A DNA stretch of 52,170 nucleotides from IMG/VR virus record IMGVR_UViG_3300020433_000009, positions 1-52,170 of that record; one strand, 5' to 3'. This DNA comes from a virus. Shown in pieces: positions 2,065-42,165 of the stretch. Each line of letters begins with the position of its first letter. Position 1 is the first letter of the stretch. The translations under genes and the position numbers were made by a program. The notes beneath the pieces were generated by a model, which was not told the DNA's origin, did no database searches, and saw nothing but the letters and a program-made list of their open reading frames with translations.

Positions 2065-2342
2065 TTAACCACCATGTCCTCTTGAAAATAATCTGTTGGA
2101 GGTGGAACTAAAGGTAAGTACCTACCTCTAGGTTCTACTGGAACTGTTAATACTTCTACCAGTAGATTGATATCAGCAGAAATAACTTCATTGGACTCTG
2201 CCATTCTACGATATCCTGTACCTACAAGGATTTGTCCTGTTACAACAGCAATAGTTGCAGCACCCCAGAACATATAATAAAATCTAGATTTCATTTGTGC
2301 TCTGATCTTGTCACGTTTACTCATTAGTTTAGTCATAATCAT
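2061..2342 (-). CDS. Predicted single-pass membrane protein next to gp44
   Basis: A 93-residue protein with a basic N-terminus (KLMSKRDKIRAQMKSR), one strongly hydrophobic segment around residues 21-43 (YYMFWGAATIAVVTGQILVG), then a soluble Pro-rich tail (LVPPPTDYF). The charge pattern predicts the basic end in the cytoplasm. It overlaps the gp44 stop by four bases. Its role is unknown; a membrane protein embedded in the replication clamp-loader operon is notable. Confidence 0.75.
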   Translation of the reverse strand: MIMTKLMSKRDKIRAQMKSRFYYMFWGAATIAVVTGQILVGTGYRRMAESNEVISADINLLVEVLTVPVEPRGRYLPLVPPPTDYFQEDMVVK

Positions 2343-3283
2343 TTGAATTCACACTCTACCATGATTTCGGTAAGAGCTGCTAGTAAATTAATTTCTTGGT
2401 CAGCAACAAATGCTGATTGGTATTGATATTTAGCGATGATCAAAACCGCTTGAGGTATACTACTAGGAAGTAAAGAAGTATACAAATTATCATATACAGT
2501 TCTTAGTATAGCATTAGGATCATTGTCAAGATTAGACACAATCCATTTACGAACAATAGAGAATTCTTTGTTCTTTAATGCAGATACCAACTCACCAAGT
2601 TTTACCTGATTTAATACCGCCAGAATGCCAGTGTCGATAGACCCCGTGGCAGCGTACCTTTGGAGTTCGTTGAGTGTTCTTCTGAAGTCTGGGAAATATT
2701 TCTGGACGACTTCAGCGACGACCGCATCAACAAATTGTACATCTTCTGCAGTAAGTATCCCACGACACCGTTCAAAGAACTGAGCCGCAATCTCTTGTTT
2801 TTGTTTTCCTCTGACATTGCAATCAATAACAGTTGTTCTAGAATGTAATGGTTCAATAATTTTGTTCTTAAAATTACAGGTAAATATAAACCTACAATTC
2901 TTTTGAAACTCTTCTATTGAAGCACGTAATAATAACTGCACATCATGTGTAGTGTTATCTGCTTCGTCTATGATGATGACCTTATGTTTTGATGATGAGG
3001 TCAACGATACAGTAGATGCAAATTGTTTAGCACTGTTGCGTACAGTATCTAGAAAACGACCCTCATCTGATCCATTGATCACATAAGAATCAACTCCTAG
3101 TTCATGACATAAAGCTTTTGCAACTGTGGTCTTACCTATGCCAGCACTACCACATAAAAGAAGATTAGGTACTTCTCCATTCTTAACAAAAGATTTGAAT
3201 GTATTCTTGATGTCGGATGGAAGAATACAATGCTCAATATTTTTGGGACGATACTTTTCGACCCAAAGAAAATCATCCTTCAT
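2339..3283 (-). CDS. gp44: Clamp loader ATPase subunit gp44
   Basis: A 314-residue AAA+ ATPase (T4 gp44 is 319). WVEKYRPKNIEHCILP at the start is the conserved N-terminus of clamp loader subunits. Walker A is GSAGIGKTT (about 45-53), Walker B is KVIIIDEAD (about 101-109), and HSRTTVIDC (about 148-156) holds the Arg of the SRC-like motif that senses ATP at a neighbouring subunit. With gp62 it opens the gp45 clamp and loads it at primer ends. It overlaps the gp45 gene by 11 bases. Confidence 0.97.
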   Translation of the reverse strand: MKDDFLWVEKYRPKNIEHCILPSDIKNTFKSFVKNGEVPNLLLCGSAGIGKTTVAKALCHELGVDSYVINGSDEGRFLDTVRNSAKQFASTVSLTSSSKHKVIIIDEADNTTHDVQLLLRASIEEFQKNCRFIFTCNFKNKIIEPLHSRTTVIDCNVRGKQKQEIAAQFFERCRGILTAEDVQFVDAVVAEVVQKYFPDFRRTLNELQRYAATGSIDTGILAVLNQVKLGELVSALKNKEFSIVRKWIVSNLDNDPNAILRTVYDNLYTSLLPSSIPQAVLIIAKYQYQSAFVADQEINLLAALTEIMVECEFK

Positions 3284-3941
3284 ACTTACTATCAGGTTCT
3301 AGTGCGATAAGATACTCAAGGTCTTTGTTTGCATCCCTAAAGAGAGACGCATTCTGTTTACTAATAGTAACCTCATAATCACCAGGTAACAACTTAAGGT
3401 TCTCAACCTTAAAGTTGAAACAAAACTCTTTGTCGGTAATCCCTACATTGACAGCGTAGGTATTAGATGTATCGTTCTTCTTGTCACGTACAACAAGTTT
3501 AACACTAGAACCATCACCAACTACTGCTAGATCTTCTATCTGATAGATTGATGCAGCTTTGATAACGTTAGATATATCTGCCCATGCTACTGTAAAACAT
3601 ACATCCTTACTAGGAAGCTCTACTCTATTCTCAGGTGGAGTAGTTATGGTAGATGGATCTGCAAAGAAATACCTTGAAGAATTCTTTTTGTCTTTGATGA
3701 TGACGTAGTTATCATTCTCAAAATTGAACTCAGGATCTTCAAATAAAGTAAGTCCAGATAAGAACTCACTCAAATCATAAATTGCAAAATTCTTTGGGAA
3801 CTTCTCCTCTACATTTGCACGAGACAATATGTTTTTTTGAATGGATAGAGTTGATAACTCTGTGCCTTCTTTAAAACAAATTGACTGGTTGATATTAGAG
3901 AAGTTTTTTAGAATGTCAAGTGTTCCTTTTGATAGTTTCAT
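3273..3941 (-). CDS. gp45: Sliding clamp gp45
   Basis: A 222-residue protein (T4 gp45 is 228) immediately upstream of gp44, as in T4. The N-terminus KLSKGTLDILKNFSNIN resembles the first helix-strand of the T4 clamp. It contains two copies of the alternating beta/alpha pattern expected of the trimeric clamp. gp45 tethers the DNA polymerase, and in T4 it also acts as the mobile activator of late transcription with gp55 and gp33. Here gp55 is about 10 kb upstream in the same orientation. Confidence 0.93.
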   Translation of the reverse strand: MKLSKGTLDILKNFSNINQSICFKEGTELSTLSIQKNILSRANVEEKFPKNFAIYDLSEFLSGLTLFEDPEFNFENDNYVIIKDKKNSSRYFFADPSTITTPPENRVELPSKDVCFTVAWADISNVIKAASIYQIEDLAVVGDGSSVKLVVRDKKNDTSNTYAVNVGITDKEFCFNFKVENLKLLPGDYEVTISKQNASLFRDANKDLEYLIALEPDSKYEG

Positions 3942-4391: not shown

Positions 4392-5465
4392 TCAAACTTC
4401 TTTGTCAAAGTCAACATCAGCATCCACCTTGTCATATAACTCTTGGAATGCTTGCTTTGTCTCTTCGTCAAAACGTGAGATACATGTGGTGATTGCCTTA
4501 GCACGATTGCCGAAGATCTCATATGCTTTTACGATGTGCACAAGTCTACGAGTAGAGATGATCTCATCAATACCACCATCAAAGAATGTCTTACGGATGA
4601 TGTCTGCCCAGTCAACAAGTTTGTTGTTGAACTCTTTGTCCTCACCATTCAATGCATCAAGTATTTTGATCTCACTAGCAGGTGTAGGATACTGCTGTTC
4701 AAATGTTACTGGGAACCTTTCTAGGAATGCTTCGTTAAGAACGTTAGTACCTACAAATCTACCATCTTCAGAACCTTTACCTTTTGTGTTAGCAGTTGCA
4801 ACAACTGTAAAGCCTTTAGCAGGTTGTATGAACTTACCGATCTTTTTGAGGAAGACACCTTTGCCTTCTAGTATAGATTGTAGACATAAGATCTTGTTAG
4901 ATGCTAGGTCAATCTCATCAAGTAATAGAACTGCACCTCTTTGAAGTGCTTCTACTACAGGACCGTTGTGCCATACTGTGTTGCCATCGACAAGACGGAA
5001 ACCACCGATAAGATCATCTTCGTCTGTCTCGATAGAAATGTTTACTCTGATGAGTTCTCTGTTTGCCTGAGCACATGCTTGTTCTACAGAGAAGGTCTTA
5101 CCGTTACCAGATAAACCTGTGATGAACATAGGATAGAAGATCTTTGAAGATATGATCTTTTTAACATCAGTAAAGTTACCGAACTTTATGAAGGTCTGAT
5201 CTATTTGTGGAATTAAATTCTGATCTACAGAAGGGAGAACAGTAGGAGCTGCAAGTGCCTTTTCAAGTATCTCTCTACCTTCTGATACTGTGAGGTTCCA
5301 TGAACCTTTCTTAACTTGGAATGCTTTTAACTTACGTGCAACTGTTGGATATGCACAACCTACTTTAGTTGCAAATTTTCTTACGTGAGAAGCATCAATC
5401 TCGTTGCCAAATGCATCACGTAGTTCATCAACGAAGTTGACGGATAGTTTTCTCTCGAAAGGCAT
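4392..5465 (-). CDS. cobS: CobS-like (MoxR-type) AAA+ ATPase
   Basis: The start is set at 5465 (MPFERKLSV); the longer frame to 5537 would run through the terminator hairpin. The product is 357 residues. An N-terminal region of about 80 residues looks like a helical, helix-turn-helix-like domain. The AAA+ core follows: Walker A GLSGNGKT near residue 115, a pore-loop region, Walker B AVLLLDEID near 178, and TANTKGKGS as sensor 1. In bacteria CobS is the ATPase of aerobic cobaltochelatase. Cyanophages carry this homologue widely, but no CobN is visible here. The CobT-like VWA partner is two genes upstream, so a MoxR-VWA remodelling pair is the safer description. No Shine-Dalgarno is evident. 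Confidence 0.9.
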   Translation of the reverse strand: MPFERKLSVNFVDELRDAFGNEIDASHVRKFATKVGCAYPTVARKLKAFQVKKGSWNLTVSEGREILEKALAAPTVLPSVDQNLIPQIDQTFIKFGNFTDVKKIISSKIFYPMFITGLSGNGKTFSVEQACAQANRELIRVNISIETDEDDLIGGFRLVDGNTVWHNGPVVEALQRGAVLLLDEIDLASNKILCLQSILEGKGVFLKKIGKFIQPAKGFTVVATANTKGKGSEDGRFVGTNVLNEAFLERFPVTFEQQYPTPASEIKILDALNGEDKEFNNKLVDWADIIRKTFFDGGIDEIISTRRLVHIVKAYEIFGNRAKAITTCISRFDEETKQAFQELYDKVDADVDFDKEV

Positions 5466-5502
5466 AATAAAAAAATCAATTTGTGTATGTATTAATAATA
5501 TC

Positions 5503-5528
5503 AAAAAAATACCCCCTGTGAAGGGGGT
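5503..5528 (-). terminator. Intrinsic terminator after the ParB-like gene
   Basis: The hairpin arms are ACCCCC and GGGGGT (5511-5516 and 5523-5528) with a six-base loop. In the minus direction they are followed by a run of seven T (5503-5509). It lies 21 bases past the ParB-like stop and 37 bases before the CobS-like start, so CobS expression needs read-through or its own promoter. Confidence 0.85.
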
Positions 5529-5549
5529 GTGTGCCACTAATTTAATTGG

Positions 5550-6611
5550 TTAGTGTCTTATAAATTTACCTTCCTCAACACCTTCTGAGACTTCTTGTGC
5601 TAGGTAAGCATGCTCACAGTTTGGGTGCTCCCATGGGAGACATCCGTTAGATACAAAGTAGTGAAATAGTTTCCTACAGTCTATACCTAACCTGTTAAAG
5701 TACACGTTGTGTACCTTGTTTCTTTTAGTAGATAAGTCCTCAACTTTTGATGGAAGACCAACAGAAGCTTGTATGTTAAGGTGCTTATCTATAGGAACGT
5801 TTGCAGCCTGACTGAGAAGTGGATTAGTTCTTGAATTCCAGTTTTCCATGTTTACATAATAGTTGTAACCATGATCTGCTGAATTGTTCATGACCTCATC
5901 AACGTATTCATCAGTTGATCTAGCAACAAAATCAGCGAAAGTCTTATCGTTATGAGATGAATAACGATTAGGTTTTACTGATACGTTCTTTTGACTAACA
6001 ATCCAACTCATCATCTCTTTTACAATCGTACCTTGTACAGTTGCAGTTAATGAGTTGTTTGCTATGAGTGCAACTTCAGTCTCAATCTCAGTTTGAGTTG
6101 TTAGTTTGCCCTCAGCAATGCCAAACTTAATGTGCTCTATAACTTCATCTTTGTTGTTTAACTTAGAGTGGAATACTCTTTCGTTGTTAAGAGTTTTGGC
6201 AAATCTTTTACGTGCCCATCCATCTGCACACCTGACGTAGACAAACATCCAACCAGGTATGGATAAGATCGCACAGGCATCATGCCTATGTCCACCAGTG
6301 ATGATATCACCAGTGTCTATGTCAATGTAAACTGGAGGGCAAGAACTATCAACACCATTCTGTTGAATGTCTTCCTTCAGTAAGTTGACTTGTACATCAT
6401 TAGTTCCGTATACACGTCCAATGTTGTTTTGTTTTTTAACTGTTGCCCAAAGACCATACTTAGTTTCGATAATCTCGATACCGTCTATGGCTTTGTCACT
6501 AACAGGGAATGTCCAGACACTAGGGTCGAACAATCTTTCATCGAAGTATTCATTTGCATATTGCGATGGAGCATATGTGCAATTGAATGCCTTCTCTAGC
6601 GTTTTTGTCAT
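5550..6611 (-). CDS. ParB/Srx-fold protein
   Basis: A 353-residue protein. In the first third, VYIDIDTGDIITGGHRHDAC (about 93-112) matches the ParB/sulfiredoxin-type nucleotide-binding motif (GxHRxxA-like, with GGHRHDA). The rest (many Asn, Tyr, His and Lys) has no domain I recognise. ParB-like phage proteins may be nucleases or CTP-dependent DNA-binding proteins; neither can be chosen here. It lies alone between a terminator/promoter element and a terminator, flanked by the CobT-like and CobS-like genes, suggesting a shared role or shared timing. Confidence 0.75.
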   Translation of the reverse strand: MTKTLEKAFNCTYAPSQYANEYFDERLFDPSVWTFPVSDKAIDGIEIIETKYGLWATVKKQNNIGRVYGTNDVQVNLLKEDIQQNGVDSSCPPVYIDIDTGDIITGGHRHDACAILSIPGWMFVYVRCADGWARKRFAKTLNNERVFHSKLNNKDEVIEHIKFGIAEGKLTTQTEIETEVALIANNSLTATVQGTIVKEMMSWIVSQKNVSVKPNRYSSHNDKTFADFVARSTDEYVDEVMNNSADHGYNYYVNMENWNSRTNPLLSQAANVPIDKHLNIQASVGLPSKVEDLSTKRNKVHNVYFNRLGIDCRKLFHYFVSNGCLPWEHPNCEHAYLAQEVSEGVEEGKFIRH

Positions 6612-6657
6612 AAGTTTTTTTCCACCCGAAGATGGTCAAATAATAGTGAACCTTATA

Positions 6658-6685
6658 AGCATAGCATAAAAGAGAATAGTGTCAA
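6658..6685 (-). promoter_or_regulatory. Sigma70-like promoter for the ParB-like gene
   Basis: On the minus strand TTGACA (6680-6685) is followed after 16 bases by TATGCT (6658-6663). The -35 box is a perfect consensus; the -10 matches four of six. Transcription would start near 6650, about 40 bases before the ParB-like start. The -35 box lies in the loop of the terminator hairpin that ends the upstream gene. Confidence 0.55.
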
Positions 6686-6694
6686 GCTATTCTC
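6668..6694 (-). terminator. Terminator hairpin overlapping the CobT-like stop
   Basis: An eight-base-pair stem GAGAATAG/CTATTCTC (6672-6679 and 6687-6694) with a seven-base loop, followed in the minus direction by four T. The last codons and the stop of the CobT-like gene are inside the hairpin. The short T-run makes it weaker than the element at 5503-5528. Confidence 0.65.
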
Positions 6695-8877
6695 TCAATG
6701 AATGATGTTAGGATCTTTTTGTTCATCTTCTTACCACCTAGAGACTTGACGAATGCTCTCTTGATTTGTGCCTTGGTTGCATCCTCTGCAACTTCAAACT
6801 CAGTATCATTGTCAAGTGCCTTAGAGTTTAAAGCATACTGTACAGTGTATGCACTTGATGTGCAGATGAATGATTTAGTCTTCTTCCAGATAGCATCTGC
6901 AGCTGCAACCTTCTCCTCATCATAACCTAAGCATCCACGCTTAAATCTGTACCAGTCATTGCCACTTATAAGACGGATGTTCATGAACTCACACTGAGGA
7001 AAACGATCACGTAATTGATAGATGAATGTATCTGTCTGATTATACTGATCATTAGTAAACTGGTATACATTACTAGTTTTGCGATCACGTAGGTAGACAT
7101 TGCTCTTGATGTTTGCTCTGGTGATCATTGTACCTTCCTCACGGTATCTGTTTACTTCTCTACCATAAGGAATAGGATAACCCTCACCATCAGTTAGATT
7201 GATAAGATGCATTTTCTGAACACCAGTTCTCTTTTGAAACTCAGGAAGAATGTGGTTCATAGAAATCATCGCTTCATTTAGAGGAGTGCCACCCATGCCT
7301 AGTTGACGAGGAAAACCACAACTATCATAACTTCTCATAGCAGATGCTAAACGGAATAAGTTGTGCATTTGTTTGTCATGTTTACGGTTGTTGCAACCAC
7401 TACTTAGTATGTTGACCATGCTAAAGTTTTTAAGAATAAGTTTATTCTTATGCTCAAACTTTTCTTCAATGTCATACTTTTCTCTTTCGTAAGAATAACT
7501 ATCTGAGAAAAGATATACATCATAAGCAATACCAACTTTACGACAGAATGTGACTAGAGTAAATAGTTGCTTCATAGTATCTTTGATGATGTTACCCATA
7601 GAACCAGACCAGTCAACATTGAAAACTAGACCATGACTTTTACCATCAGGTATAGTAGTTACCTTTCTGAATAGATCTTCATTGTATTTGTATGTGTGAA
7701 GTTTAGATGTGTCTAGAACTCCAGTACGACTTACAGTAGCACGTGCATAACCATCTGCAGCTTTCTTCATCTCGAACTCTTTTACAAGATAGTTAACTTC
7801 TTTCTGCATAGAGATCTTGAACTTGTTGTACTCAGCATCTGTAGTCTGTAATGCATTAAGGTAATACTTTTGCATTTGTAATTCATAGTCATCACCAACA
7901 CCTGATGGGTTTTGTATTTTTGTATAGTGCTCATCTAATAATTTGCTGACCTCATCATTACTAATGATAACGTTAGCATTGATAGACTTAGGTAACTCAA
8001 CATAAACATTCTCCTCACCTTCAAGTCTAACTAACTCACGTAGTGCACTCTCAAGATCATCAGCAGTTCTTACTTGAGGTGTATTAGGCATAGTCTCATT
8101 TGCTTCGTTACGACCTGCCTGAGTACCAGTTGTTTCTGTCTGCTCACCTTGACTATGTGTTTGATCATCATAATCTAGACCGTCATCTTCTATTTGATCT
8201 TCTGAGTTACCTTCTTGTGATTGCTCATCATCAAATAAAGGATGCTGTCCCTCTGCACCATCACCTTTCTCACTACGACCCTCACTTAGATCTTCAAAAG
8301 GATTGTTTCCATCAAGAAGATCTTCTTTCTTCTGTTGCTCTAGTTCTACCTTAGCATGTGCTAGTAATTTTCTAGCAAGTGCAAGTGTATCTTCAAATGT
8401 GTCTAGTTGTCTTGCTTCTTCTGTAAATACTTTTTCATCATCACTGAAAGGAACATCAACATAGTTACCAATCTTCCACCATAGATTTAATCTATCTGCA
8501 ATATTGAACTGAGATATATCTTCACCCTCAATCTTGAAGAAGTCCTCGTCAGAGAGGATCTGATAACCCTTGTAGAAAGTTTTTGAAAGGCCAGCATATC
8601 TACGCTTCATGTGCATCTCAATGCGAATGTCCTCAACAACATTGACAAACTGCATTGGAATTTCTTTGATGAAGTCCCACTGGTTAGGAGTATATAATGC
8701 ATGACCAACCTCGTGTGCAATCAATGCATCTACAACAGCATTCTCTTTGTGTGACCATGTTGGTAGAGTTAGAACTCTAGTATCAACATTAAATTGTGCT
8801 GTGCTGACTTGACGATGCTCTACAATCAAGTCTTCTTGAGCAAGTAGTTTAGCAAGTGATTCTTTGACGATGTTCAT
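6682..8877 (-). CDS. CobT-like VWA protein with N-terminal HExxH motif
   Basis: A 731-residue protein in three parts. The N-terminus has a zinc-metallopeptidase-like motif HEVGH (residues 55-59), with a further acidic motif VVEDIRIE from about 80 that could supply the third ligand. A long acidic Gln/Glu/Asp linker (about 188-270) follows. The C-terminal half is a von Willebrand A domain with MIDAS motif DWSGSM near 420, a Thr in GMGGTPLNE near 525, and LINLTDGEG later, as in CobT-type chelatase subunits. Cyanophage homologues are often labelled peptidase. I infer a metal-dependent partner of the CobS-like ATPase; the substrate is unknown. Confidence 0.85.
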   Translation of the reverse strand: MNIVKESLAKLLAQEDLIVEHRQVSTAQFNVDTRVLTLPTWSHKENAVVDALIAHEVGHALYTPNQWDFIKEIPMQFVNVVEDIRIEMHMKRRYAGLSKTFYKGYQILSDEDFFKIEGEDISQFNIADRLNLWWKIGNYVDVPFSDDEKVFTEEARQLDTFEDTLALARKLLAHAKVELEQQKKEDLLDGNNPFEDLSEGRSEKGDGAEGQHPLFDDEQSQEGNSEDQIEDDGLDYDDQTHSQGEQTETTGTQAGRNEANETMPNTPQVRTADDLESALRELVRLEGEENVYVELPKSINANVIISNDEVSKLLDEHYTKIQNPSGVGDDYELQMQKYYLNALQTTDAEYNKFKISMQKEVNYLVKEFEMKKAADGYARATVSRTGVLDTSKLHTYKYNEDLFRKVTTIPDGKSHGLVFNVDWSGSMGNIIKDTMKQLFTLVTFCRKVGIAYDVYLFSDSYSYEREKYDIEEKFEHKNKLILKNFSMVNILSSGCNNRKHDKQMHNLFRLASAMRSYDSCGFPRQLGMGGTPLNEAMISMNHILPEFQKRTGVQKMHLINLTDGEGYPIPYGREVNRYREEGTMITRANIKSNVYLRDRKTSNVYQFTNDQYNQTDTFIYQLRDRFPQCEFMNIRLISGNDWYRFKRGCLGYDEEKVAAADAIWKKTKSFICTSSAYTVQYALNSKALDNDTEFEVAEDATKAQIKRAFVKSLGGKKMNKKILTSFIERIA

Positions 8878-8895: not shown

Positions 8896-9048
8896 CTATA
8901 CATTGTAATAAGAAACCCTCCGCTTGGGAGGGTTTAGTAGACACTTTTTTAAGTGGCTCCGTCTTGCACGTGCCTGTCGTAATGCTTGTGGTTTGAGGTG
9001 ACGCTTCTTTTCCTTTTTGGAATGATGCTGCCAATTGGGGACTTTCAT
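8896..9048 (-). CDS. Small basic protein downstream of gp46
   Basis: A 50-codon ORF read directly from the DNA. Its ATG overlaps the gp46 stop (TAATG), and it has a strong Shine-Dalgarno (CAGGAGGAAT) inside the end of gp46, so translation is well supported. The product begins MKVPNWQHHSKKEKKRH and is extremely rich in Lys, Arg and His (RQARARRSH, PPKRRV), consistent with nucleic-acid binding. Its last codons run through a terminator hairpin at 8913-8935. No family is recognised. Confidence 0.75.
   Translation of the reverse strand: MKVPNWQHHSKKEKKRHLKPQALRQARARRSHLKKCLLNPPKRRVSYYNV
8913..8935 (-). terminator. GC-rich terminator hairpin inside the end of the small basic gene
   Basis: A perfect nine-base-pair stem AAACCCTCC/GGAGGGTTT with a five-base loop. 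In the minus direction it is followed by the T-rich TTTCTTATT, so it can act as an intrinsic terminator of the gp47-DUF3110-gp46 unit. It lies within the last codons of the 50-codon ORF, so translation to the stop would compete with folding. Confidence 0.7.
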
Positions 9049-10763
9049 TATTCCTCCTGAGATATAACTGAGAAGTTTTGTTTTCTTTCTACTACTAGAG
9101 TAGAAGCAAACTTATCTTGTAAGGCTTCTGTCTTGTGAGATATCACAAACACATTTGTTTTATCAGAAACCGTGTGTAGAATTTTGAGGAAATCATCTGT
9201 ACCAGATGTATCTAAACTACTATCAAAGATCTCATCTAAGATTAGCAGATTAGTATTAGCACTGTTCTTCATCTTGGCAATAGTTCTCCAAGTAAACAAG
9301 AGTGCAAGGTCAATCCTCATCTTCTCACCTTCAGAGAATGATGCATAAGTAAACTCATCTCTGAACCTAGATTTAATAGTCTCCATGAAATTCTCATCGA
9401 GTTCAAAAGATACATAAAAATCTAGTTCTTTTAAATACCTATTTATGAGTTGGTTCATAATTGGTAGGTATTTTTTTATTATTGTACTCTTAATTCCAGT
9501 GTCACGCAACATAGATGTGACGGTATCATAGTTGTCACGTGTTCTCTTAGCGTCAAGTAGGGATTCCTCTACCTTCATTCCATCTGATGCTAGAGTTTTT
9601 AATTTCTTTTTCTCTCTTGTAATGTTGCTAGTGTTTCCAGATGATATCTTATCTTCTATCTTTTTAATTTCTTTCTTCTTCCATTGTATTTCTTTATTAC
9701 ACTCACTAATTTTTTGTTGTGCTGTCAAGAGGTCAGACATAAGAACTTGTTTCTCTGATACTTGTTCTAATATCTTTTTTAATTTATCTTGCAACTGTTC
9801 TGTTGCCTTATCAATCTCATCTAACTGTGTACTGAGCTCAACCTTCTTAGCACTTCTAAGATTTGCTGTGATGGTCTGTTCACAGGTAGGACAACGATCA
9901 TTCTTCTCAAAAAATTTATACTCTTTCTTAAATGCTTTTTGTTTATCCTTAAATCTTGATTCGTATATACGTAACTGATTTAACTCTGCGTCAACATCAC
10001 CATACTCGTCTAACCGTTTCTCATATAACTTAGACATGGTGAGATCATCGTCTACATCTTTTGTAATGCATGATATCTCATCTTCTAAACTTGAAATCTC
10101 TTCTTTACGTCTAGCATTATTTGCAGAGGATTGTTCTTGAAGATCAGCAATAAATCTTTGTTGCAACTCTACTTTTTGTTTTGCCAGTTCGTAATTATAT
10201 TCACAATCTCTAATGTTCTCTTTGACAGTTTTAAATCTTTCTTTGAGTATAGAATTCATTGTAGAGAAGATACGAATATCCAAAAGATCTTCAATAACTT
10301 CTCTACGGTTTGGGGGGTTAAGTTGCATAAAGGGAACAAAGCTTGATGATCCTAAGATCACCACCTGAGTAAATGATTTATAATTCAACCTCAGTATACT
10401 TTGCTCCAGATGTTTCTGTTGCTCGTTTATCGCTGCTTCTTGGGAAAGCATGTTACCATTAAGATAGATCTCAAAGATCGTAGGTTTGAAACCACGTCTT
10501 ATCATATAGTCACGAGAACCAATACTAAATTCTATCTCAACAAGCAAATCCCTTTCGTTAACTGCATTCACAAGTTGTGCTTTAGTTATCTTACGAAAAG
10601 GTTTATTGAACAAACCAAAACAAATAGCATCCAAGAATGTGGATTTACCTGCTCCATTTGTACCAATAATCAGAGTGGCAGGACTTGCATCAAGTCTTAT
10701 CTCACTAAAAACATTACCAGTAGATAGAAAGTTCTTCCATCTAACAGACTTAAAAAGAATCAT
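9048..10763 (-). CDS. gp46: Recombination endonuclease subunit gp46 (Rad50-like)
   Basis: A 571-residue SMC/Rad50-type ATPase (T4 gp46 is 560). Walker A is GTNGAGKST (about 34-42). Two long coiled-coil arms flank a zinc hook CPTC near residue 291. The ABC signature SFSEGEKMRIDLALLF is near 475 and Walker B NLLILDEIFDSSLD near 510. With gp47 it resects DNA ends for recombination-dependent replication and degrades host DNA. It ends in a TAATG overlap with the small basic gene and lies 10 bases after DUF3110. Confidence 0.97.
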   Translation of the reverse strand: MILFKSVRWKNFLSTGNVFSEIRLDASPATLIIGTNGAGKSTFLDAICFGLFNKPFRKITKAQLVNAVNERDLLVEIEFSIGSRDYMIRRGFKPTIFEIYLNGNMLSQEAAINEQQKHLEQSILRLNYKSFTQVVILGSSSFVPFMQLNPPNRREVIEDLLDIRIFSTMNSILKERFKTVKENIRDCEYNYELAKQKVELQQRFIADLQEQSSANNARRKEEISSLEDEISCITKDVDDDLTMSKLYEKRLDEYGDVDAELNQLRIYESRFKDKQKAFKKEYKFFEKNDRCPTCEQTITANLRSAKKVELSTQLDEIDKATEQLQDKLKKILEQVSEKQVLMSDLLTAQQKISECNKEIQWKKKEIKKIEDKISSGNTSNITREKKKLKTLASDGMKVEESLLDAKRTRDNYDTVTSMLRDTGIKSTIIKKYLPIMNQLINRYLKELDFYVSFELDENFMETIKSRFRDEFTYASFSEGEKMRIDLALLFTWRTIAKMKNSANTNLLILDEIFDSSLDTSGTDDFLKILHTVSDKTNVFVISHKTEALQDKFASTLVVERKQNFSVISQEE

Positions 10764-10773: not shown

Positions 10774-11031
10774 TTAATCCCTAGGCGGTACTACTATATC
10801 ATCAGGAGTGACAACATAATATTCATGACCGTGTGCAACGCAAGTTTGTATAATCTCTCGATCACTTACCTCTACCACTGACATCTCTGGAAAATCTTCA
10901 GCTTCCAGAAGTCCAGCATAGCGTACTGCGTCGTCTTTGTCAAGGAACATGTATACTAATGGTTTATTCTTATCTGTATTAACAGCGTAAGCCCCTTCGT
11001 TTTCTTTACCATGTATTGCTAAAATATACAT
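10774..11031 (-). CDS. DUF3110-family protein
   Basis: An 85-residue protein whose pattern KENEGAYAV, YMFLDKDDAVRYAGLLEAE, DFPEMSVVEVSDREI follows the cyanobacterial DUF3110 family, in which a strand-helix FxDxDDAxRYAxLLExQDFP signature is typical. Function unknown. It sits between gp47 and gp46 with a one-base stop/start overlap with gp47, so it is probably co-expressed with the nuclease subunits. Its family supports a cyanobacterial host. Confidence 0.85.
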   Translation of the reverse strand: MYILAIHGKENEGAYAVNTDKNKPLVYMFLDKDDAVRYAGLLEAEDFPEMSVVEVSDREIIQTCVAHGHEYYVVTPDDIVVPPRD

Positions 11032-12077
11032 TAGACTAACTCCAGTGCTTCTACGTATAAGGATTTGAGAATAGATTTAAGTGCAGGTTTATCAGAATGA
11101 TTTAAGTCATCAACATATCTTTCAAGGATAGTAAGTGTATCTTCTTTTTCAATATCAATCTCTTCATTAAGATCCTGTTCAAATGATGGATCCTCTATAA
11201 CTTTGATCTCATGTACACCTGCAGCATACAATTGACTAATAAAGAATTCAAATTTATCAGGATCAGTTTTCTTCTCTACAATAATCTTTATAAAATTACT
11301 AGTAAAGTCAGCATAATTAAACTTACTACTATTTAACTGATCTTCATTGTAGTAAATCTTAGAATATATCTCATAAGGGTTCGGTATAAACTCCAATTCT
11401 TTAGTTTCAGTATCAAATATATGGAAACCACGTTTACAATTATAGTCATTCCAATAGATCTGATATGGATTACCTAGGTATGTGATGTTTTCTCTGGTGC
11501 TTCTTTGGTGATAGTGACCTGAGAATACTTTCTCAAACTTTCTATAAGGAGAAGTTGCAGCACCATGATCCATGATGTATCCTCTATGTGCTTCAAAACC
11601 ATTGAGTTCTAGATGACCCATTGCAACAGTAGACTTGGTTTTTTCAATAAGATCATAAGTCTCATCATGGTTCTCTGAGTTTATCCAAGGTATGAATAGA
11701 ATAGGTAGTCCTCCTATCTCTACTTCGGTTGCTTTAGAATATATTTCTACATTATCATACTCACCAACTGTAGTCACGAGAGTGTTTACTAAATTAGTAT
11801 CTTTAAAATATGCAGTATGATTTCCCACAAGAGAATGAACTTGCACTCCCATGTTTTTTAGTACATCAAAATAATTATGTGTTGCCCATTGTGCAGCCCA
11901 GATGTCTAAATTTCTACGGTTGTCAAATGTATCTCCTAAATCAAGAACTGTTTTGATGCCACGTTTTTTTAGAGTAGGAAAGAATACATTTCTATAAAAC
12001 TTCTTAAAGAAGTCATGAAATATTCTACTAGATTTTCTTGCACCAAAGTGTTGATCAGTTATTATTGCTACCTTCAC
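11031..12077 (-). CDS. gp47: Recombination endonuclease subunit gp47 (Mre11-like)
   Basis: A 348-residue metallophosphoesterase (T4 gp47 is 339). All Mre11 metal-binding motifs are visible: IITDQHFGAR (D-x-H, residues 5-14), DLGDTFDNRR (GD), LVGNHTAYF (GNH), AMGHLEL, and VFSGHYHQRS (GHxH). It forms the nuclease of the gp46/gp47 complex that processes double-strand breaks and ends. Its start overlaps the aminotransferase stop (ATGA), so it is translated from the same transcript as gp55 and the cassette between them. Confidence 0.96.
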   Translation of the reverse strand: MKVAIITDQHFGARKSSRIFHDFFKKFYRNVFFPTLKKRGIKTVLDLGDTFDNRRNLDIWAAQWATHNYFDVLKNMGVQVHSLVGNHTAYFKDTNLVNTLVTTVGEYDNVEIYSKATEVEIGGLPILFIPWINSENHDETYDLIEKTKSTVAMGHLELNGFEAHRGYIMDHGAATSPYRKFEKVFSGHYHQRSTRENITYLGNPYQIYWNDYNCKRGFHIFDTETKELEFIPNPYEIYSKIYYNEDQLNSSKFNYADFTSNFIKIIVEKKTDPDKFEFFISQLYAAGVHEIKVIEDPSFEQDLNEEIDIEKEDTLTILERYVDDLNHSDKPALKSILKSLYVEALELV

Positions 12078-13216
12078 TTCAGTTGTTGCTCCAAGAAGTA
12101 AAAGTATTCGTCATTAGCATTGATCGGAATGGTATACATTCCTTTGTGTTCACGCTCAATTTCAATTATAGTTCCGAACTGTCCTCTCACATTATAACCT
12201 AAATCCTTGAATAGGTCAACTGCCCTCACTACTATATCCCTATGTTTATCCATTAGGTTTTCATCTTTCAGTATTTTAATGTATGCTAGACAACTTAGGA
12301 TGCCAGGCAAACTGAAACTATATGTAAACCCATGCTCCCAATCAAATTCTCTAGGCAATGCTTCATGTATCTTATCATTGTATAGTGTGATACTCAATGG
12401 GAAGTAACCTCCTGTGATTGCCTTGCCCATAGTAAAGATGTCAGGTGCAACTGGCAACCTCTTCCAACCTACAAATGTACCAGTCTTTCCTCCTCCTGTA
12501 AAAATATCATCTATGATTACTAGAACTCCTCTGTTCTGTATATCGTTTATCTTATCCCAAAACTCTTCCGTATGTGGTCTGATACCATTTGCGTAAGGAC
12601 AAGTTTCAACCACTACACACATAACATCATCCCAGTTATGGTTGTCTACAACAAACTCTATTGGTAATCTCATTATATTTTCACATGGACTCATGGTGTA
12701 AAAAGGATCATTGAATAAACCATCACCCATGCTCTGAGTTAGTAGAGTTGATCCATGGTAACTATCTCTGAATACTACTATCTTATTACGTTGAGGACTT
12801 CCTACCTCTTTTTGATATGCACTAGCAAGTTTAACTGCTCCTTCTACTGCATCACTACCACTTAATGCAAAGATACTTCTATACTTAACTGGGATTTTTC
12901 TACCATCACCACAATCTCTACAGGTAGTAGTCGTTGATGTAATAGCTCTGAGTGTCTTTGCTAGTTTGAATGTGCAGTTGTTTAACTTGAGAGGTTGAGC
13001 ATCAAAGAAGTTCTCACCTATCTCTGGTTTGATGCACATATTATTATGAACATATCTCATGATCTCCATCTCACCATACCCCAATGTATAGCAACCGAAG
13101 TTCAACATAGGGTCTATGTACCTCTTACCATCTAAACTCATCCTACCATATGTCCAACCATACTCTTGGTTGCCCACGTTTTTTTGTTTGCCTGATATTA
13201 ATCCTAGATATTTCAT
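12074..13216 (-). CDS. Class III PLP-dependent aminotransferase
   Basis: A 380-residue fold-type I PLP enzyme. Motifs in order: FALSGSDAVEGAVKLA (about 116-131, phosphate cup), FRDSYHGST (149-157), IIDDIFTGGGKTG (234-246, variant of the DEVxxGxGRTG motif, Asp for the pyridine N) and FTMGKAITGGYFP (261-273) with the Schiff-base Lys265. It is 40-70 residues shorter than most class III members. A small CRDCGDGRK insertion (99-107) could bind metal. The SGSDAVE and GKAITGG motifs resemble BioA-type enzymes, but the substrate cannot be assigned. It overlaps both neighbours by four bases, forming a cassette with two 2OG-oxygenase-like genes. Confidence 0.88.
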   Translation of the reverse strand: MKYLGLISGKQKNVGNQEYGWTYGRMSLDGKRYIDPMLNFGCYTLGYGEMEIMRYVHNNMCIKPEIGENFFDAQPLKLNNCTFKLAKTLRAITSTTTTCRDCGDGRKIPVKYRSIFALSGSDAVEGAVKLASAYQKEVGSPQRNKIVVFRDSYHGSTLLTQSMGDGLFNDPFYTMSPCENIMRLPIEFVVDNHNWDDVMCVVVETCPYANGIRPHTEEFWDKINDIQNRGVLVIIDDIFTGGGKTGTFVGWKRLPVAPDIFTMGKAITGGYFPLSITLYNDKIHEALPREFDWEHGFTYSFSLPGILSCLAYIKILKDENLMDKHRDIVVRAVDLFKDLGYNVRGQFGTIIEIEREHKGMYTIPINANDEYFYFLEQQLK

Positions 13217-13866
13217 TCTCTTATAAAAGGTTGTTGTGGTCCTGTAATGTTTTTCAAAAAGAAATTAAGTGTCAACCTATCAGTTTTACTTCCAAAGGTC
13301 TGAGCTGCATGTTGTGTATTACCATCGAATAGTATCATTCTGTTGTATACATTATTAATTCTAGCACTCTCCTCATACTGTCCATTTACTTTATTAAATG
13401 CATGCTCATATATTTCATCAGGTACATCCTGACCCTTATATAATGCTTCTTTTACATCTGTGTCTACTGCTTCTTGAAAAAAGTATCCATTTTTTATTGT
13501 GTATATTGACGTACCAGTATCTTTCTGTGGATGTTTATTGAGATAGATCAATCCACCATAGAGACATCCACAATCATTATGTACCCACCCTTGGTTCTTG
13601 GGATGATACTGATCCTCATGAAGAGGTTTGATAATCTGGAATGTCATATCCATCTCCCAGTAGTCAGGAATTCTTTCGTAATGCCATTGAAATAATCTTC
13701 TGCATACCCAGTTGAATAAAGGACTATTGAATGTATTAATATTCTGAGTTCTTTTGCCTGGCCACCTACCATCAGTTGTATTAGTATACTTTGCTTCGTA
13801 TGCAAGTTCTACAATTTTGTCTGGATCTGGAAAAAAATTATCTAGAATGGTAACTGGATACATCAT
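13213..13866 (-). CDS. 2OG-Fe(II) oxygenase-like protein (cassette copy 1)
   Basis: A 217-residue protein paralogous to the gene just upstream. It shares the N-terminal pattern YPVTILDNFFPDPDKIVELA. Putative iron ligands are His96 and Asp98 (WVHNDCG) followed by GGLIYLN, and His186 (NTQHAAQTFG), with Arg197 (DRLTLNFF) placed to bind 2-oxoglutarate. This is the double-stranded beta-helix arrangement of Fe/2OG dioxygenases. It has four-base overlaps with both neighbours. Substrate unknown; the adjacent aminotransferase suggests small-molecule or protein-side-chain modification. Confidence 0.78.
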   Translation of the reverse strand: MMYPVTILDNFFPDPDKIVELAYEAKYTNTTDGRWPGKRTQNINTFNSPLFNWVCRRLFQWHYERIPDYWEMDMTFQIIKPLHEDQYHPKNQGWVHNDCGCLYGGLIYLNKHPQKDTGTSIYTIKNGYFFQEAVDTDVKEALYKGQDVPDEIYEHAFNKVNGQYEESARINNVYNRMILFDGNTQHAAQTFGSKTDRLTLNFFLKNITGPQQPFIRE

Positions 13867-14516
13867 ATAGATCTAAGGATTGGTGGTAATTGTCCTGTCA
13901 TTTCTCTACCAAAGAAGTTGAGAGTTATGCGTTCTTGTTTGTGCCCATAAGTTTCAACACCATGGTGAGCATAGGCTGGAAATAATACAAACCTATTGTA
14001 TACATTCTCTATCTTAACAGTCTCTATGTACTGGTCATATACAATATCCCATGCTTTATTATATTCGTCAAGGTCTAGTTCCTCATCCTTGTATAATGTT
14101 TCTTTTTGTTTTAACTCACTAGGAGTCTGTCTAGTAAAACCATACTTGGGTCTGTAGATCGTCGTTCCTGTATGTGGTTCTGGGTTCTTGTTCAAGTAAA
14201 CTATACCACCAAACCACGTGTCAAGATCTTGATGTATCCATCCACGGTTTCTTTTATCCCATTGTTCATCTGCTAGAGGTTTGATGAACTGAAACTGAGT
14301 TTGCATATTATAATACTCAGGTATCTCATCAGAGAAAATTTTGTAGATACGATTACAAAAGTATTCAAACAACCTCTTATTTGAGATGTGCAACATCTTA
14401 GTTCTAGAACCTGGCCAGTTGCCAGGACTATTATAGGTCTTTAGTTTTTTTGCGTTTTCTACTATCTGATCAGGATCTTCAAAGAAGTCATCTATTATAG
14501 TAAGTGGATAGGTCAC
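13863..14516 (-). CDS. 2OG-Fe(II) oxygenase-like protein (cassette copy 2)
   Basis: A 217-residue protein, the same length as its downstream paralogue. N-terminal YPLTIIDDFFEDPDQIVENA. Putative HxD is His95/Asp97 (WIHQDLD), followed by GGIVYLNKNPEPHTGTTIY; distal His184 or His185 (YAHHGVETYG) and Arg196 (ERITLNFF). All catalytic positions are present, so it is probably active. It overlaps the gp55 stop by four bases. The two copies probably arose by tandem duplication and have since diverged widely. Substrate unknown. Confidence 0.8.
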   Translation of the reverse strand: MTYPLTIIDDFFEDPDQIVENAKKLKTYNSPGNWPGSRTKMLHISNKRLFEYFCNRIYKIFSDEIPEYYNMQTQFQFIKPLADEQWDKRNRGWIHQDLDTWFGGIVYLNKNPEPHTGTTIYRPKYGFTRQTPSELKQKETLYKDEELDLDEYNKAWDIVYDQYIETVKIENVYNRFVLFPAYAHHGVETYGHKQERITLNFFGREMTGQLPPILRSI

Positions 14517-15492: not shown

Positions 15493-16942
15493 CTATAAAC
15501 TCGTAGTTAAAGTTTTCTTCATTGTATATTTTAACACGTTCTATCAAGTGGTTCAATGTGTAATTGTTCCTAGAACCTCTTGATGTATCATCAGCGATGT
15601 CATATAAGACTGCCTTTGTTTTGTGATCCCCTTTTCTTAAGACCCTACCGATCGACTGGAGGTTCCTGATTTTCGATTTTGAAGGCGATGCAAAGACAAC
15701 GTTATGTAAATTCCGAATATTAATACCAGTGCTAAAAGTCCCATAGGATGCAACTATAATACTATCATGAGTAGTTTCAGCGATTCGTCTTGCTTCCTCT
15801 CTGTCCTCGGTATCGACCCCTCCGTGTACTAAAAAGACTTGACGATCCTTACCTACCTTATTATTTATCAATTCAAAAAGGGGCATGCCATGCCGTTCAA
15901 CGTAGTTGAACAAGACGAGAGTGTTACCAGACAGGTCACAAACTAGGTTACGTATGAACCTATTCCTCATTTCATGCTCTACGAGGTAGTCCATCTCCTC
16001 CTGATAGGTATCAAAAACTTGTTTGTCATGTTTGAGTACAAGGACTTTGATCTCAAATTCAGAAAGGTGGCCTTCTTTAATTAGTTTTTCAGTCTTAGTT
16101 ACCTTGTCTACAGTCCCAAAGACCCCTTCGAGAACAAGGCGGTTGGTTTGTGTACCATCCAAAGTGCCTGTAAACCCTACGCGATATTTGCAATCGTAGA
16201 GTTTATTCATAATACTGGTAAGAGACTTTGCTTTGAATAGGTGTGCTTCATCTCCTATGACTGCACCAAACTGTTCAAAGTATACCTTAGGTAGTTTATA
16301 CACTGACTGCCATGTGGTAATGATTACATCCTTGTTGGATTTAGTATCAGCACCTGCATATATCTTGTGGCAATGCTTCTTTACATTCCATCCATAGTCC
16401 TCAAAGTCCTTATACATCTGTTCTACCAGAGATGTAGTGGGAACTACTATGAGTGTTTTTAAATTCTTAAGCTCCCAGAAACGTGTGAGAGCATATATCA
16501 TGAGTGACTTACCAGAACCTGTAGGTGACAGTAAGAGTTTACGCTTGTTGCGTAATGCTTCGTAGATACCTTTGTACTGATAGTCTCTAACTTTATGAGG
16601 TAACTGCAGTGATTTGATCCAATCTCCTAGTCCTTGGGGTGTAACGAACTCATCCACTTCTGATGGAAGTCCGTAAAATTCGTTGTCCCTATGGATAACT
16701 TCATACCCTCTTTGCTCGCAAAACGCAATAATATAAGGGAGAAGACCAACATAAATCTCGCCTGTACCTGGGGAGAATAGTTTAATTTTTCCATCCCAAT
16801 ACCTTTTCTTGTACGCTGACATGAACTTGGCTTGTGGCACTTCAAAAGTGAACTCGTCTGCTAACTCATGCTGAACATGAGGTTCAGCTTGAACAGTTAG
16901 GTATACTTCGTTCTTCTTTTGAATGATGACATTAGATTTCAT
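15470..16942 (-). CDS. uvsW: RNA-DNA/recombination helicase UvsW
   Basis: A 490-residue SF2 helicase. Walker A is SPTGSGKSLMIYAL (about 139-152), motif Ib-like VPTTSLVEQM, DEAH box VIGDEAHLF (near 230), motif III VGFTGTLDG and motif VI QSIGRVLRKG (near 440). The N-terminal ~90 residues form the separate domain seen in T4 UvsW. UvsW unwinds R-loops and branched recombination intermediates and switches origin use. It overlaps the UvsY stop by 11 bases, linking two recombination functions. Confidence 0.96.
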   Translation of the reverse strand: MKSNVIIQKKNEVYLTVQAEPHVQHELADEFTFEVPQAKFMSAYKKRYWDGKIKLFSPGTGEIYVGLLPYIIAFCEQRGYEVIHRDNEFYGLPSEVDEFVTPQGLGDWIKSLQLPHKVRDYQYKGIYEALRNKRKLLLSPTGSGKSLMIYALTRFWELKNLKTLIVVPTTSLVEQMYKDFEDYGWNVKKHCHKIYAGADTKSNKDVIITTWQSVYKLPKVYFEQFGAVIGDEAHLFKAKSLTSIMNKLYDCKYRVGFTGTLDGTQTNRLVLEGVFGTVDKVTKTEKLIKEGHLSEFEIKVLVLKHDKQVFDTYQEEMDYLVEHEMRNRFIRNLVCDLSGNTLVLFNYVERHGMPLFELINNKVGKDRQVFLVHGGVDTEDREEARRIAETTHDSIIVASYGTFSTGINIRNLHNVVFASPSKSKIRNLQSIGRVLRKGDHKTKAVLYDIADDTSRGSRNNYTLNHLIERVKIYNEENFNYEFIDVRIKNK

Positions 16943-17345
16943 AACCCTTCAAAAATTTGGCGAACTCAATCGCATTTTTAATATAGAATGATCGGTTATT
17001 AATTGCCTGTAGTATGGCTTTTAATGCATCAACCATCTGGTTATAGTACTTCAGTTTAAGGACGGACTTAGCGTATACTTCATCAGCTTCCAGATATGTT
17101 GGCACATCTGTCTTGATGAGTTTAAGTGGAAATGGTTTCTCCGCTTTACCAGTATAGTACTCCCACCTATCTCTATAGGTGCGTTTGACTTCAAACTCCT
17201 GTTGATCCCTTAAGGTATTAAAGGTGTTGTAAAGTCTTAAGTATTTAGCGTGTAATTTTGGGATTGCTAGTGAGTCATGATCTAATTTTTCATCGTTTAG
17301 TTGTGAGTCTTGCTCCCACATTTCATTCAATTTGTCTAGGTTCAT
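16932..17345 (-). CDS. uvsY: Recombination mediator UvsY
   Basis: A 137-residue protein, the same length as T4 UvsY. It is highly charged and helical; MNLDKLNEMWEQDSQLN at the N-terminus and LKLKYYNQMVDALKAILQAI near the C-terminus match the family. UvsY loads the UvsX recombinase onto gp32-coated single-stranded DNA. Its start overlaps the stop of the upstream tail-tube-like gene by four bases, so a recombination gene is coupled to a virion gene. Confidence 0.94.
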   Translation of the reverse strand: MNLDKLNEMWEQDSQLNDEKLDHDSLAIPKLHAKYLRLYNTFNTLRDQQEFEVKRTYRDRWEYYTGKAEKPFPLKLIKTDVPTYLEADEVYAKSVLKLKYYNQMVDALKAILQAINNRSFYIKNAIEFAKFLKGYEI

Positions 17346-17899
17346 ACTTTGTTTCCGTCTTTATCCGTTATCTCGTAGAGGGTATATTTAAAATTAACTT
17401 CTGCAGTAAAGTAATTAATGTCTGTTGCTGATGCATCAAACTCTAGTGTGGTTAGACTTGATGGGAATATATTGAAGAAGTTAACAGCAGATATTGTATT
17501 GTAGTTACTGTTAAGGATGAGTAGTCTTGCATCACTCATTGTCTTTTCAAATTCATTTGGCCTACCCTTCTCATCTACAGTTGCAATGTATTGTGCAAAC
17601 TCTTTTTGATGTTGTGGGTTGGTCAAACCTTTCAACCACCTGTATATCTCATAGTAGTTGTCTAAGTCTTCATTAACTAAGAACCTTAGGTTAAGATCAC
17701 CAAAGGTCATCTTATCGCCAGGAATAACATAGTCTTTGACTGGTGTTTGTATGTCCCTTACACCAATACTTACCTCAGGTATAGACGCAGACTGACAAAA
17801 ATAATCCACGTTTGGTGTTCTACCAATAACGAACTTAAAACCTACAGGAGATAAGAAGTTTTTATTAGTGGGACTGAATAGTGTCTGCTCGTATGCCAT
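17342..17899 (-). CDS. Tail-tube-fold structural protein (gp19/gp54-like)
   Basis: A 185-residue protein with the T4 gp19 tube pattern: SPVGFKFVIGRTPNVDYFCQ (about 16-35), IPEVSIG, TPVKDYVIPGDKMTFGDLNL (52-71), and VNEDLDNYYEIYRWLKGL. It is distinct from the tail tube gene at 24065-24694. It could be the baseplate tube initiator (gp54-like) or a second tube paralogue; the sequence alone does not decide. A late-promoter-like GATAAATA lies 23 bases before the start, and GGAG precedes the ATG. Its stop overlaps uvsY. Confidence 0.78.
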   Translation of the reverse strand: MAYEQTLFSPTNKNFLSPVGFKFVIGRTPNVDYFCQSASIPEVSIGVRDIQTPVKDYVIPGDKMTFGDLNLRFLVNEDLDNYYEIYRWLKGLTNPQHQKEFAQYIATVDEKGRPNEFEKTMSDARLLILNSNYNTISAVNFFNIFPSSLTTLEFDASATDINYFTAEVNFKYTLYEITDKDGNKV

Positions 17900-17921
17900 T
17901 AGTTCATGCAGGTCTCCGTAT

Positions 17922-17929
17922 TATTTATC
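17922..17929 (-). promoter_or_regulatory. Late-promoter-like element GATAAATA
   Basis: Reads GATAAATA on the minus strand, 23 bases before the tail-tube-like start. It differs from the T4 late consensus TATAAATA only at the first base and overlaps the TAA stop of the cupin gene. Confidence 0.55.
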
Positions 17930-18530
17930 CTAACCAAAAAACATCAGGATCGCGAATTTTGTCATAGATGTTAAACCTGAAGTCTCTGAAGTCTGGTTTC
18001 TGTGTTTCGTTATGTGCAGCATCTATCCACGTCAACTCAGCATTCTTACCTCTGGTGCTCTGCCCTTCTACATCATCAATGTTATATTCACCAACATAGT
18101 TCTCACCCACTGTACTAGGTTTGACACCGTTCTGCCAGTGCTGTACTGACATGAATATAGATCTACCATCACCCATAAATGCACCATGTATATCATCATG
18201 GTATACCTTGAGTGTAAAAAAATCGGATCGCATCTTACAGATCTTCTCCTGTTCAGGATGACTGTCTATCCAATAACCACCATGACTAAAACTTATCTTA
18301 CCACGTATGTACACTTCATATGAATCAATGTCAGGATGCCTATGCTCAGGTATGATTGCATGTGGCGGCCAGTTCAGGCACTCGACTTGATACTGCCCTT
18401 CTTTATACATAACCTTCCTATGGAAGTTAGGTACACCAAAAAAATTTCTATTCCAACCTTCTGGTTTAATTATATCGCGAGGATTAAACGTAGTCAAATA
18501 CTCATCGACAAACTCTGTGATGGCATCCAT
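17925..18530 (-). CDS. Cupin-domain protein
   Basis: A 201-residue protein. Cupin motif 1 is visible as PEHRHPDIDSYEVYIRGKIS (HxH, then Glu, then Gly), and a second metal-binding His is in DDIHGAFMGDG. This fits a metal-binding single-cupin enzyme such as a small dioxygenase or isomerase; the reaction is unknown. It begins only five bases after the T-run of a terminator hairpin and has no Shine-Dalgarno, so its expression must come by read-through or from a leaderless start. It is not part of the T4 core and looks like an auxiliary gene between gp23 and the uvsY unit. Confidence 0.75.
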   Translation of the reverse strand: MDAITEFVDEYLTTFNPRDIIKPEGWNRNFFGVPNFHRKVMYKEGQYQVECLNWPPHAIIPEHRHPDIDSYEVYIRGKISFSHGGYWIDSHPEQEKICKMRSDFFTLKVYHDDIHGAFMGDGRSIFMSVQHWQNGVKPSTVGENYVGEYNIDDVEGQSTRGKNAELTWIDAAHNETQKPDFRDFRFNIYDKIRDPDVFWLG

Positions 18531-18534
18531 GCAT

Positions 18535-18561
18535 AAAAAAAGAGGTCTAATTATTTAGACC
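18535..18561 (-). terminator. Intrinsic terminator before the cupin gene
   Basis: Seven-base-pair stem GGTCTAA/TTAGACC (18544-18550 and 18555-18561) with a four-base loop, followed in the minus direction by TC and seven T (18535-18541). It ends the short unit with the twin-CX3C miniprotein. Confidence 0.8.
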
Positions 18562-18591
18562 CCCATTAAGATAAGTTTTCAGTGCATTGTT

Positions 18592-18768: not shown

Positions 18769-18777
18769 ACTTGGCTC

Positions 18778-18813: not shown

Positions 18814-18910
18814 TTTCCTTCCTCCAATCCTACTATTATGTAGGCGAATCAACACTGTATTTTATGCTACAAAGTTACAAAAAGAAATGCCTACTAGTTT
18901 ATACCTAGAC

Positions 18911-18935: not shown

Positions 18936-18958
18936 TTGTAGGTGTATGTAACACGATA

Positions 18959-42164: not shown

Positions 42165-42165
42165 A

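Follow-up and report, generated by a model that had tools for sequence, protein, structure and literature searches.

A conserved cyanophage gene pair for a CobS-like AAA+ ATPase and an HExxH/VWA protein as a candidate remodelling system

The MIDAS (metal ion-dependent adhesion site) domains of midasin and NorD operate with AAA+ rings, and NorQ/NorD and midasin (Rea1/MDN1), each combining an AAA+ ring with a MIDAS-bearing VWA domain, provide the best structural matches for the VWA part of the protein considered here. We examine a pair of genes in IMG/VR virus record IMGVR_UViG_3300020433_000009 (positions 1 to 52,170; hereafter, the window), a 52-kb virus record whose own genome is incomplete. 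One gene of the pair encodes a CobS-like AAA+ ATPase and the other a CobT-like protein with an HExxH motif in its N-terminal domain and a VWA domain at its C-terminus; a third, ParB-like gene lies between them. All three are minus-strand open reading frames (ORFs), as the preliminary description of this DNA, made from the sequence alone, had placed them.

The kind of system is already known, as the pair itself was published by Liu 2021 (PLoS Biol, PMC8651126) and a similar architecture by Iyer 2021 (PMC7824862). In the text of Liu 2021, the same cyanophage genes appear as cobaltochelatase subunits, CobST, and the 'peptidase' label is judged mistaken, whereas we find the HExxH and a downstream glutamate to be conserved. 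The text of Iyer 2021 describes, for group 2.2 jumbo phages, a MoxR AAA+ ATPase adjoining a vWA protein whose N-terminal part is a metallopeptidase, proposes a role in virion assembly for this MoxR-vWA pair and puts P-SSM2 in group 2.1. Going by its description, the group 2.2 pair (e.g., ASV44729/ASV44728) has the same architecture in another phage group. In marine virus studies, such as the text of PMC11288001, cobS is often counted as a B12 auxiliary metabolic gene.

We favour a reading in which the pair consists of a MoxR-type remodeller and a zincin-like VWA partner that act in the replication phase, and we regard this combination as somewhat probable; that the two proteins form a remodelling pair is, taken by itself, very probable. 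The gene order, the conservation of the motifs, the fold class of the VWA part, the absence of cobN and the near-absence of late promoters are directly observed.

Motifs, fold and conservation of the two proteins

The VWA protein carries HEVGH at residues 55–59, NVVEDIRIE at residues 79–87 and a complete MIDAS (D422, S424, S426, T531 and D563). HExxH is kept in all 86 full-length relatives with the window protein counted (90 found minus 4 that are short or, in the case of L087, show the L005 contig a second time), and the MIDAS pattern is matched in 85 of the 86. The set is redundant, the 86 relatives besides the window collapsing to 51 at 85% identity. Across 53 aligned proteins with 21 to 88% identity to the window protein, H55, E56, H59, N79, E82, D83 and R85 are invariant (53/53), and the same is true of the five MIDAS ligands. 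The intact MIDAS, N-terminal HEVGH and following VVEDIRIE of the preliminary description are thus borne out, and the loss of HExxH in close relatives, which it had named as a sign to the contrary, is seen in none of the 86. In the AlphaFold model, the N-terminal domain has a predicted local distance difference test score (pLDDT) of mostly 74–92 beyond residue 20, with HEVGH sitting in one helix and a subsequent helix containing E82. Sequence and model therefore both display the zincin arrangement of a helical HExxH with a downstream glutamate, and, judged from these conserved residues, the metal site is probably functional.

A fold comparison with VIA-align, covering mainly residues 355–731, places the human MDN1-MIDAS/NLE1 complex at the top (Z 16.6, root-mean-square deviation (rmsd) 3.8, 224 aligned), tied with the NorD VWA domain (Z 15.9, rmsd 4.5, 247 aligned; a difference in Z of less than 1). 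The Rea1-MIDAS/Ytm1 entry follows (Z 15.3, rmsd 3.4, 220 aligned), and entries other than the midasin and NorD groups reach a Z of 12.5 or less. That the nearest folds are AAA-coupled MIDAS domains supports the pairing of this protein with a MoxR-type ATPase. The window protein matches no Pfam family, and its family profile finds low-complexity matches only among the sequences of solved structures. When run against 76 alphaproteobacterial genomes, the profile returns two phage-like matches (G003) and one weak match (G026, E 0.002), while a scan of genome contigs yields 5 loci, apparently on phage contigs that had been sorted into bacterial or archaeal bins.

In a Pfam search, the AAA+ protein is matched by AAA_5 (E 9e-18) and CbbQ_C (E 5e-6), and it is assigned to phrog_249, a family labelled 'porphyrin biosynthesis' (E 1.1e-133). 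Its Walker A and Walker B patterns are kept in 63 of 63 AAA relatives longer than 300 aa. By single match, its nearest solved relatives are CobS (84 bits) and NorQ (60 bits); midasin was rejected as the nearest relative, as its 163 bits sum repeated domains, the best listed single domain scoring 41. An AAA_5-type ATPase with Walker A/B and an adjoining VWA protein with an intact MIDAS are the features by which the pair belongs among MoxR/VWA systems.

Among 16 CobT-like proteins of non-cyanophage phages, HExxH is found in 13, namely those of SSU5, pJN2-26, two Rhizobium phages, CRP-810, T5S1, Reynauld, ICP2, Cyrano, JPW, UBSmoodge, Mae-Yong and OC. Some of the 16 are close kin (ICP2 with JPW; SSU5 and pJN2-26 with Cyrano), so the independent lineages are fewer. 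The downstream motif [NDS]xxE[DSN]xxxE is matched by pattern in 12 of the 16; OC reads NVCEDVRID, and ICP2, JPW and Reynauld show no such motif. Nearly all of these proteins, though not that of Reynauld, are encoded beside a gene for a CobS-like AAA protein. Because HExxH is conserved in the phage proteins, the 'peptidase' label has a real motif behind it. Haloarchaeal virus CobT proteins also appear among the rows of the structure search, and Staphylococcus phage 812 has a related AAA gene, with neither a MIDAS nor an HExxH pattern in the two neighbouring ORFs examined.

In the mechanism that we propose, the CobS-like protein would assemble into a MoxR-type AAA+ ring ATPase, and the C-terminal MIDAS VWA domain of its partner would dock either the ring or a substrate. 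This VWA part would be connected through a flexible acidic linker to the N-terminal zincin-like domain with its HExxH and downstream glutamate. With ATP turnover, a protein complex bound to the VWA domain would then be pulled on or remodelled, while the metal site of the N-domain, presumably binding zinc, might cut or clamp the substrate. The action would belong to the phase of DNA replication and recombination, not to the assembly of virions or the synthesis of B12.

Genomic position and timing

Of 50,697 phage records searched, 463 encode a relative of the VWA protein, and 450 of these are named Synechococcus, Prochlorococcus or Cyanophage. A search with the AAA protein returns 731 records, with distant AAA proteins among them, and repeats the three name counts of the VWA-protein search (365, 61 and 24). 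The pair is core to T4-like cyanophages and not unrecognised: it corresponds in families, order and position to the cyanophage phrog_249 cobS and phrog_459 'peptidase', of which the window genes are direct members, although the window lineage differs from other cyanophage core pairs in having the ParB-like insertion between the genes. Synteny was counted over 80 virus loci. The gp46 gene lies upstream of the VWA gene in all 41 loci that have at least 2.5 kb of upstream sequence, cobS lies downstream of it in all 29 testable loci, and gp45 follows within 3 kb after cobS in 24 of 25. The pair is hence placed between gp46/47 and gp45/44, that is, by DNA-replication genes. In other phages, it is found near the DNA polymerase III alpha gene at 8 loci (L144, L145 and L150–L155), near DNA polymerase and primase/helicase genes at one (L157) and near a primase gene at another (L146).

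The timing of expression was approached through the cyanophage late promoter NATAAATA given in the text of PMC2984593, which was scored if it lay no more than 100 bases upstream of a gene; genes internal to an operon may be driven from farther upstream. This sequence precedes 8 of 17 genes in the structural block of the window and 6 of 20 in that of P-RSM4 (together 14/37), but 0 of 18 and 1 of 23 genes, respectively, in the replication blocks. For the pair itself, it precedes a single peptidase gene out of 81 and a single cobS gene out of 70 (Fisher P 1.4e-7 and 5.8e-7, respectively, versus 14/37), with P values that are too small because the loci are related. The scarcity of late promoters and the replication-gene neighbours lead us to favour the replication phase over virion assembly, and we put action in that phase at slightly below an even chance.

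These counts bear most directly on the possibility that the pair is a virion-assembly chaperone with a maturation protease, building tail or head parts while the zincin domain trims structural proteins. This role is the one published by Iyer 2021 for the group 2.2 jumbo phages, with the Acidianus two-tailed virus as a precedent in that text. In the cyanophages, however, the pair sits among replication genes rather than structural genes, its late promoters are as rare as stated above against 14 of 37 for structural genes, and the text section of the published virion proteomics, tables aside, names neither protein. We therefore consider an assembly role unlikely.

No more probable is a device for host takeover or counter-defence, in which the pair would pull out and degrade a protein of the host, for example a defence complex or an RNA polymerase factor. 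Its spread over unrelated phages and the missing late promoters would suit this role, as might the logic of coupling an AAA protein to a peptidase. PADLOC, the library of which covers defence rather than counter-defence, gave no match, and the strict conservation in cyanophages would better fit a fixed phage partner than host targets that vary.

Several observations weigh against the replication-phase remodeller that we prefer. Searched to E 0.1, the 53 members of the family match none of the peptidase families in Pfam, and the VWA protein is for this reason not placed in a named peptidase family. Among the 16 other-phage proteins, those of Nican01, hairong and BUCTxx99 have lost HExxH with the third glutamate and MIDAS retained; catalysis is therefore dispensable in some lineages. 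The sole late-promoter match in the P-RSM4 replication block precedes cobS itself. The stretches of UBSmoodge, Mae-Yong, CRP-810 and Reynauld have no annotated polymerase or primase near the pair; that of UBSmoodge has a DnaB-like helicase and that of Mae-Yong a RecA-family ATPase. Finally, neighbourhood is indirect evidence, as the pair may owe its place to nothing more than having landed in a conserved block.

Relation to cellular CobS/CobT

The third alternative is that of Liu 2021, in which the pair would supply the ATPase to a host CobN and so raise cobalamin for nucleotide synthesis. Besides being in print, this proposal draws on a true kinship with the cellular proteins. CobS is the closest single-domain relative of the AAA protein, and the N-terminal domain of cellular CobT can be aligned to that of the cyanophage protein. 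The latter relation is best seen through ten SSU5-type and related phage proteins, to which the cyanophage N-domain is homologous (hhalign E 7.9e-14) and which in turn align with cellular CobT over almost the full length (E 8.8e-59); the direct comparison of the cyanophage N-domain with cellular CobT is weak (E 1.6e-4, probability 50). Cyanobacteria also have the CobN/Mg-chelatase family, as matched in the control Synechococcus elongatus.

The differences from the cellular system are nonetheless considerable. The AAA+ protein fails the TIGR01650 CobS equivalog test, scoring 80.2 bits against a cut-off of 558.55, and PF06213 (CobT) is unmatched in the window protein and the window record, while five of the 53 relatives match it weakly, at best with E 0.02. 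At the site homologous to the phage HExxH, none of 40 cellular CobT proteins has the motif, and the sole HExxH string among the 40 lies far downstream in L113, at about residue 264 of the open frame. No cobN was found in any of the 17 phage records examined or among the ORFs of the window, as the preliminary description had noted for the latter, and the conserved co-occurrence of cobN that it had named as contrary evidence is likewise not found among close relatives: tblastn of the 50,697 phage records gives two cobN-like matches, one in a fragment from faeces and one in a Pseudomonas phage, and none in a cyanophage. Its suggestion of a chaperone- or protease-like function in place of cobalamin synthesis is hence upheld by the conserved HExxH and MIDAS, the cobN count and the nearness of the VWA part to midasin and NorD. 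Pairs are also carried by phages that infect E. coli, Salmonella, Klebsiella and Vibrio cholerae, hosts that to our knowledge are without CobN.

CobT was matched in 55 of the 76 alphaproteobacterial genomes and the CobN/Mg-chelatase family in 29, and 27 of the 55 have CobT without a PF02514 protein, though some of these absences may be gaps in incomplete genomes; in the control Caulobacter vibrioides, CobT is matched and PF02514 unmatched. CobT-like proteins therefore often occur without CobN in cells as well. On present evidence, drawn from sequence comparison, the pair does not appear to be a B12 enzyme, and we regard a cobaltochelatase role as more doubtful than either assembly or takeover. 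Two further observations concern these families. Divergent CobT proteins are encoded at seven loci (L127–L133) in small alphaproteobacterial genomes, with the CobN family unmatched in five of the seven (G063, G051, G035, G015 and G013), and an unannotated 67-kb record of Pseudomonas phage Y13 contains an almost full-length CobN-like gene (H183, 16274–19960).

The gene names can mislead. In E. coli, cobS and cobT denote cobalamin 5'-phosphate synthase and a phosphoribosyltransferase, which are different enzymes from CobS/CobT. The label 'dimethylbenzimidazole phosphoribosyltransferase' in Cyrano appears to confuse the two meanings of cobT, and the text of PMC11288001 likewise appears to confuse those of cobS/cobT. 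A literature search that covered few subscription journals found no paper joining phage, cobT, cobS and HExxH. The candidate new point may be that a real HExxH motif is widespread in phage CobT-like proteins and has no counterpart at that site in cellular CobT, which, from these alignments, may look like an HExxH-less relative. The fuller proposition, that phage 'CobST' is the active form of an AAA+/zinc-protease remodeller for DNA replication in many unrelated phages, that cellular CobT is a relative which lost the HExxH and that the B12 label of cyanophage cobS is then mistaken in many marine virus papers, is less likely than not. Were the pair instead to remodel proteins with a linked protease during the replication phase, claims of B12 auxiliary genes would need revision, a core pair of abundant ocean phages would acquire a testable function, and there would be a hint at the origin of the CobT subunit and at why CobST pairs exist without CobN.

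Gap between the pair and other genes of the window

Across 73 loci with the window, the peptidase and cobS genes are separated by no more than 200 bases in 29 and by a larger gap in 44; these 44 gaps contain 78 ORFs of 60 aa or longer, which fall into 24 families. This gap is a variable insertion site of cyanophage replication blocks. The ParB-like gene that occupies it in the window has relatives at 7 virus loci and, among phage isolates, in S-H9-1 alone (2 of the 50,697 phage records). In S-H9-1, it lies at 12.8 kb and the pair at 116–120 kb, about 100 kb away, with 77 bases between the pair genes, and in the L091 contig it is present without the pair. The middle protein has no firm match in profile searches, its Pfam ParB domain search is negative and its model is poor (mean pLDDT 43.9); the sole support for the ParB label is GGHRxxA, which we take to be a ParB/Srx-like motif.

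Being rare, far from the pair in S-H9-1 and set in a variable gap, the middle gene is counted as a passenger; it is a recent insertion, one of many, and not part of the module. The preliminary description had proposed that the three genes form a remodelling system, of which the pair stands and the ParB-like member does not. Neither its ParB fold nor its DNA-partition-like module is supported by these results, and the three genes do not always co-occur in cyanophages. A three-gene, ParB-linked partition or remodelling system, for which the adjacency in the window and in five contigs with both flanks visible (L086, L088, L089, L090 and L005, the last being one contig with L087) would speak, is highly improbable given the few relatives, S-H9-1, L091, the 24 ORF families of the gap and the unmatched Pfam ParB domain.

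The coordinates of these genes and their features are collected in Table 1. For the CobS-like protein, the start is probably the ATG at 5465 rather than the GTG at 5537, as the consensus of its relatives begins about there.

Table 1. Positions in the window of the gene pair, its sequence features and its neighbours
Feature	Position	Strand	Basis or remark
HExxH/VWA protein, 731 aa, CobT-like	6682..8877	-	phrog_459 'peptidase', E 2.7e-240
Putative N-terminal zincin-like domain, residues 1-189	8311..8877	-	AlphaFold model; hhalign homology to other phage N-domains
HEVGH, residues 55-59, within predicted helix 46-62	8701..8715	-	conservation and model
NxxEDxR, residues 79-85, predicted helix 75-93; E82 candidate third metal ligand	8623..8643	-	conservation and model
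Acidic disordered linker, residues 190-263	8089..8310	-	pLDDT below 50
VWA domain, about residues 410-731	6685..7650	-	VIA-align structure comparison
MIDAS motif DWSGSM, residues 422-427	7597..7614	-	pattern and alignment
Further MIDAS ligands T531 and D563	7285-7287 (T531); 7189-7191 (D563)	-	pattern and alignment
CobS-like MoxR-type AAA+ ATPase, 357 aa from likely start	4392..5465	-	ORF open to 5537; phrog_249
Walker A GLSGNGKT	5094..5117	-	pattern in relatives
Walker B VLLLDEID	4908..4931	-	pattern in relatives
Passenger ORF, ParB/Srx-like by motif only (GGHRHDA)	5550..6611	-	outside the module
gp46 (SbcC-like), fixed upstream neighbour	9048..10763	-	PHROG match
gp47 (SbcD-like)	11031..12077	-	PHROG match
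gp45 sliding clamp, downstream neighbour	3273..3941	-	Pfam and PHROG match
gp44 clamp loader	2339..3283	-	Pfam and PHROG match

Elsewhere in the window, a class-III aminotransferase gene (12074–13216; PF00202, E 3.6e-42) lies between gp47 and DUF6445 genes and is not listed at the corresponding place in the annotated cyanophages P-RSM4 and MED4-213. An 1833-aa protein (33524–39025) has an N-terminal part that is subtilisin-like by eye (DHGTYCA, GGTSFSCP) and, in Pfam at E 0.001, a weak Ig-like match only. Seven genes for 2-oxoglutarate-Fe(II) oxygenase or DUF6445 proteins are found at 39388–42930 and 13213–14516, where the assignment of 40813–41526 scores below the Pfam cut-off and five of the seven are near-continuous.

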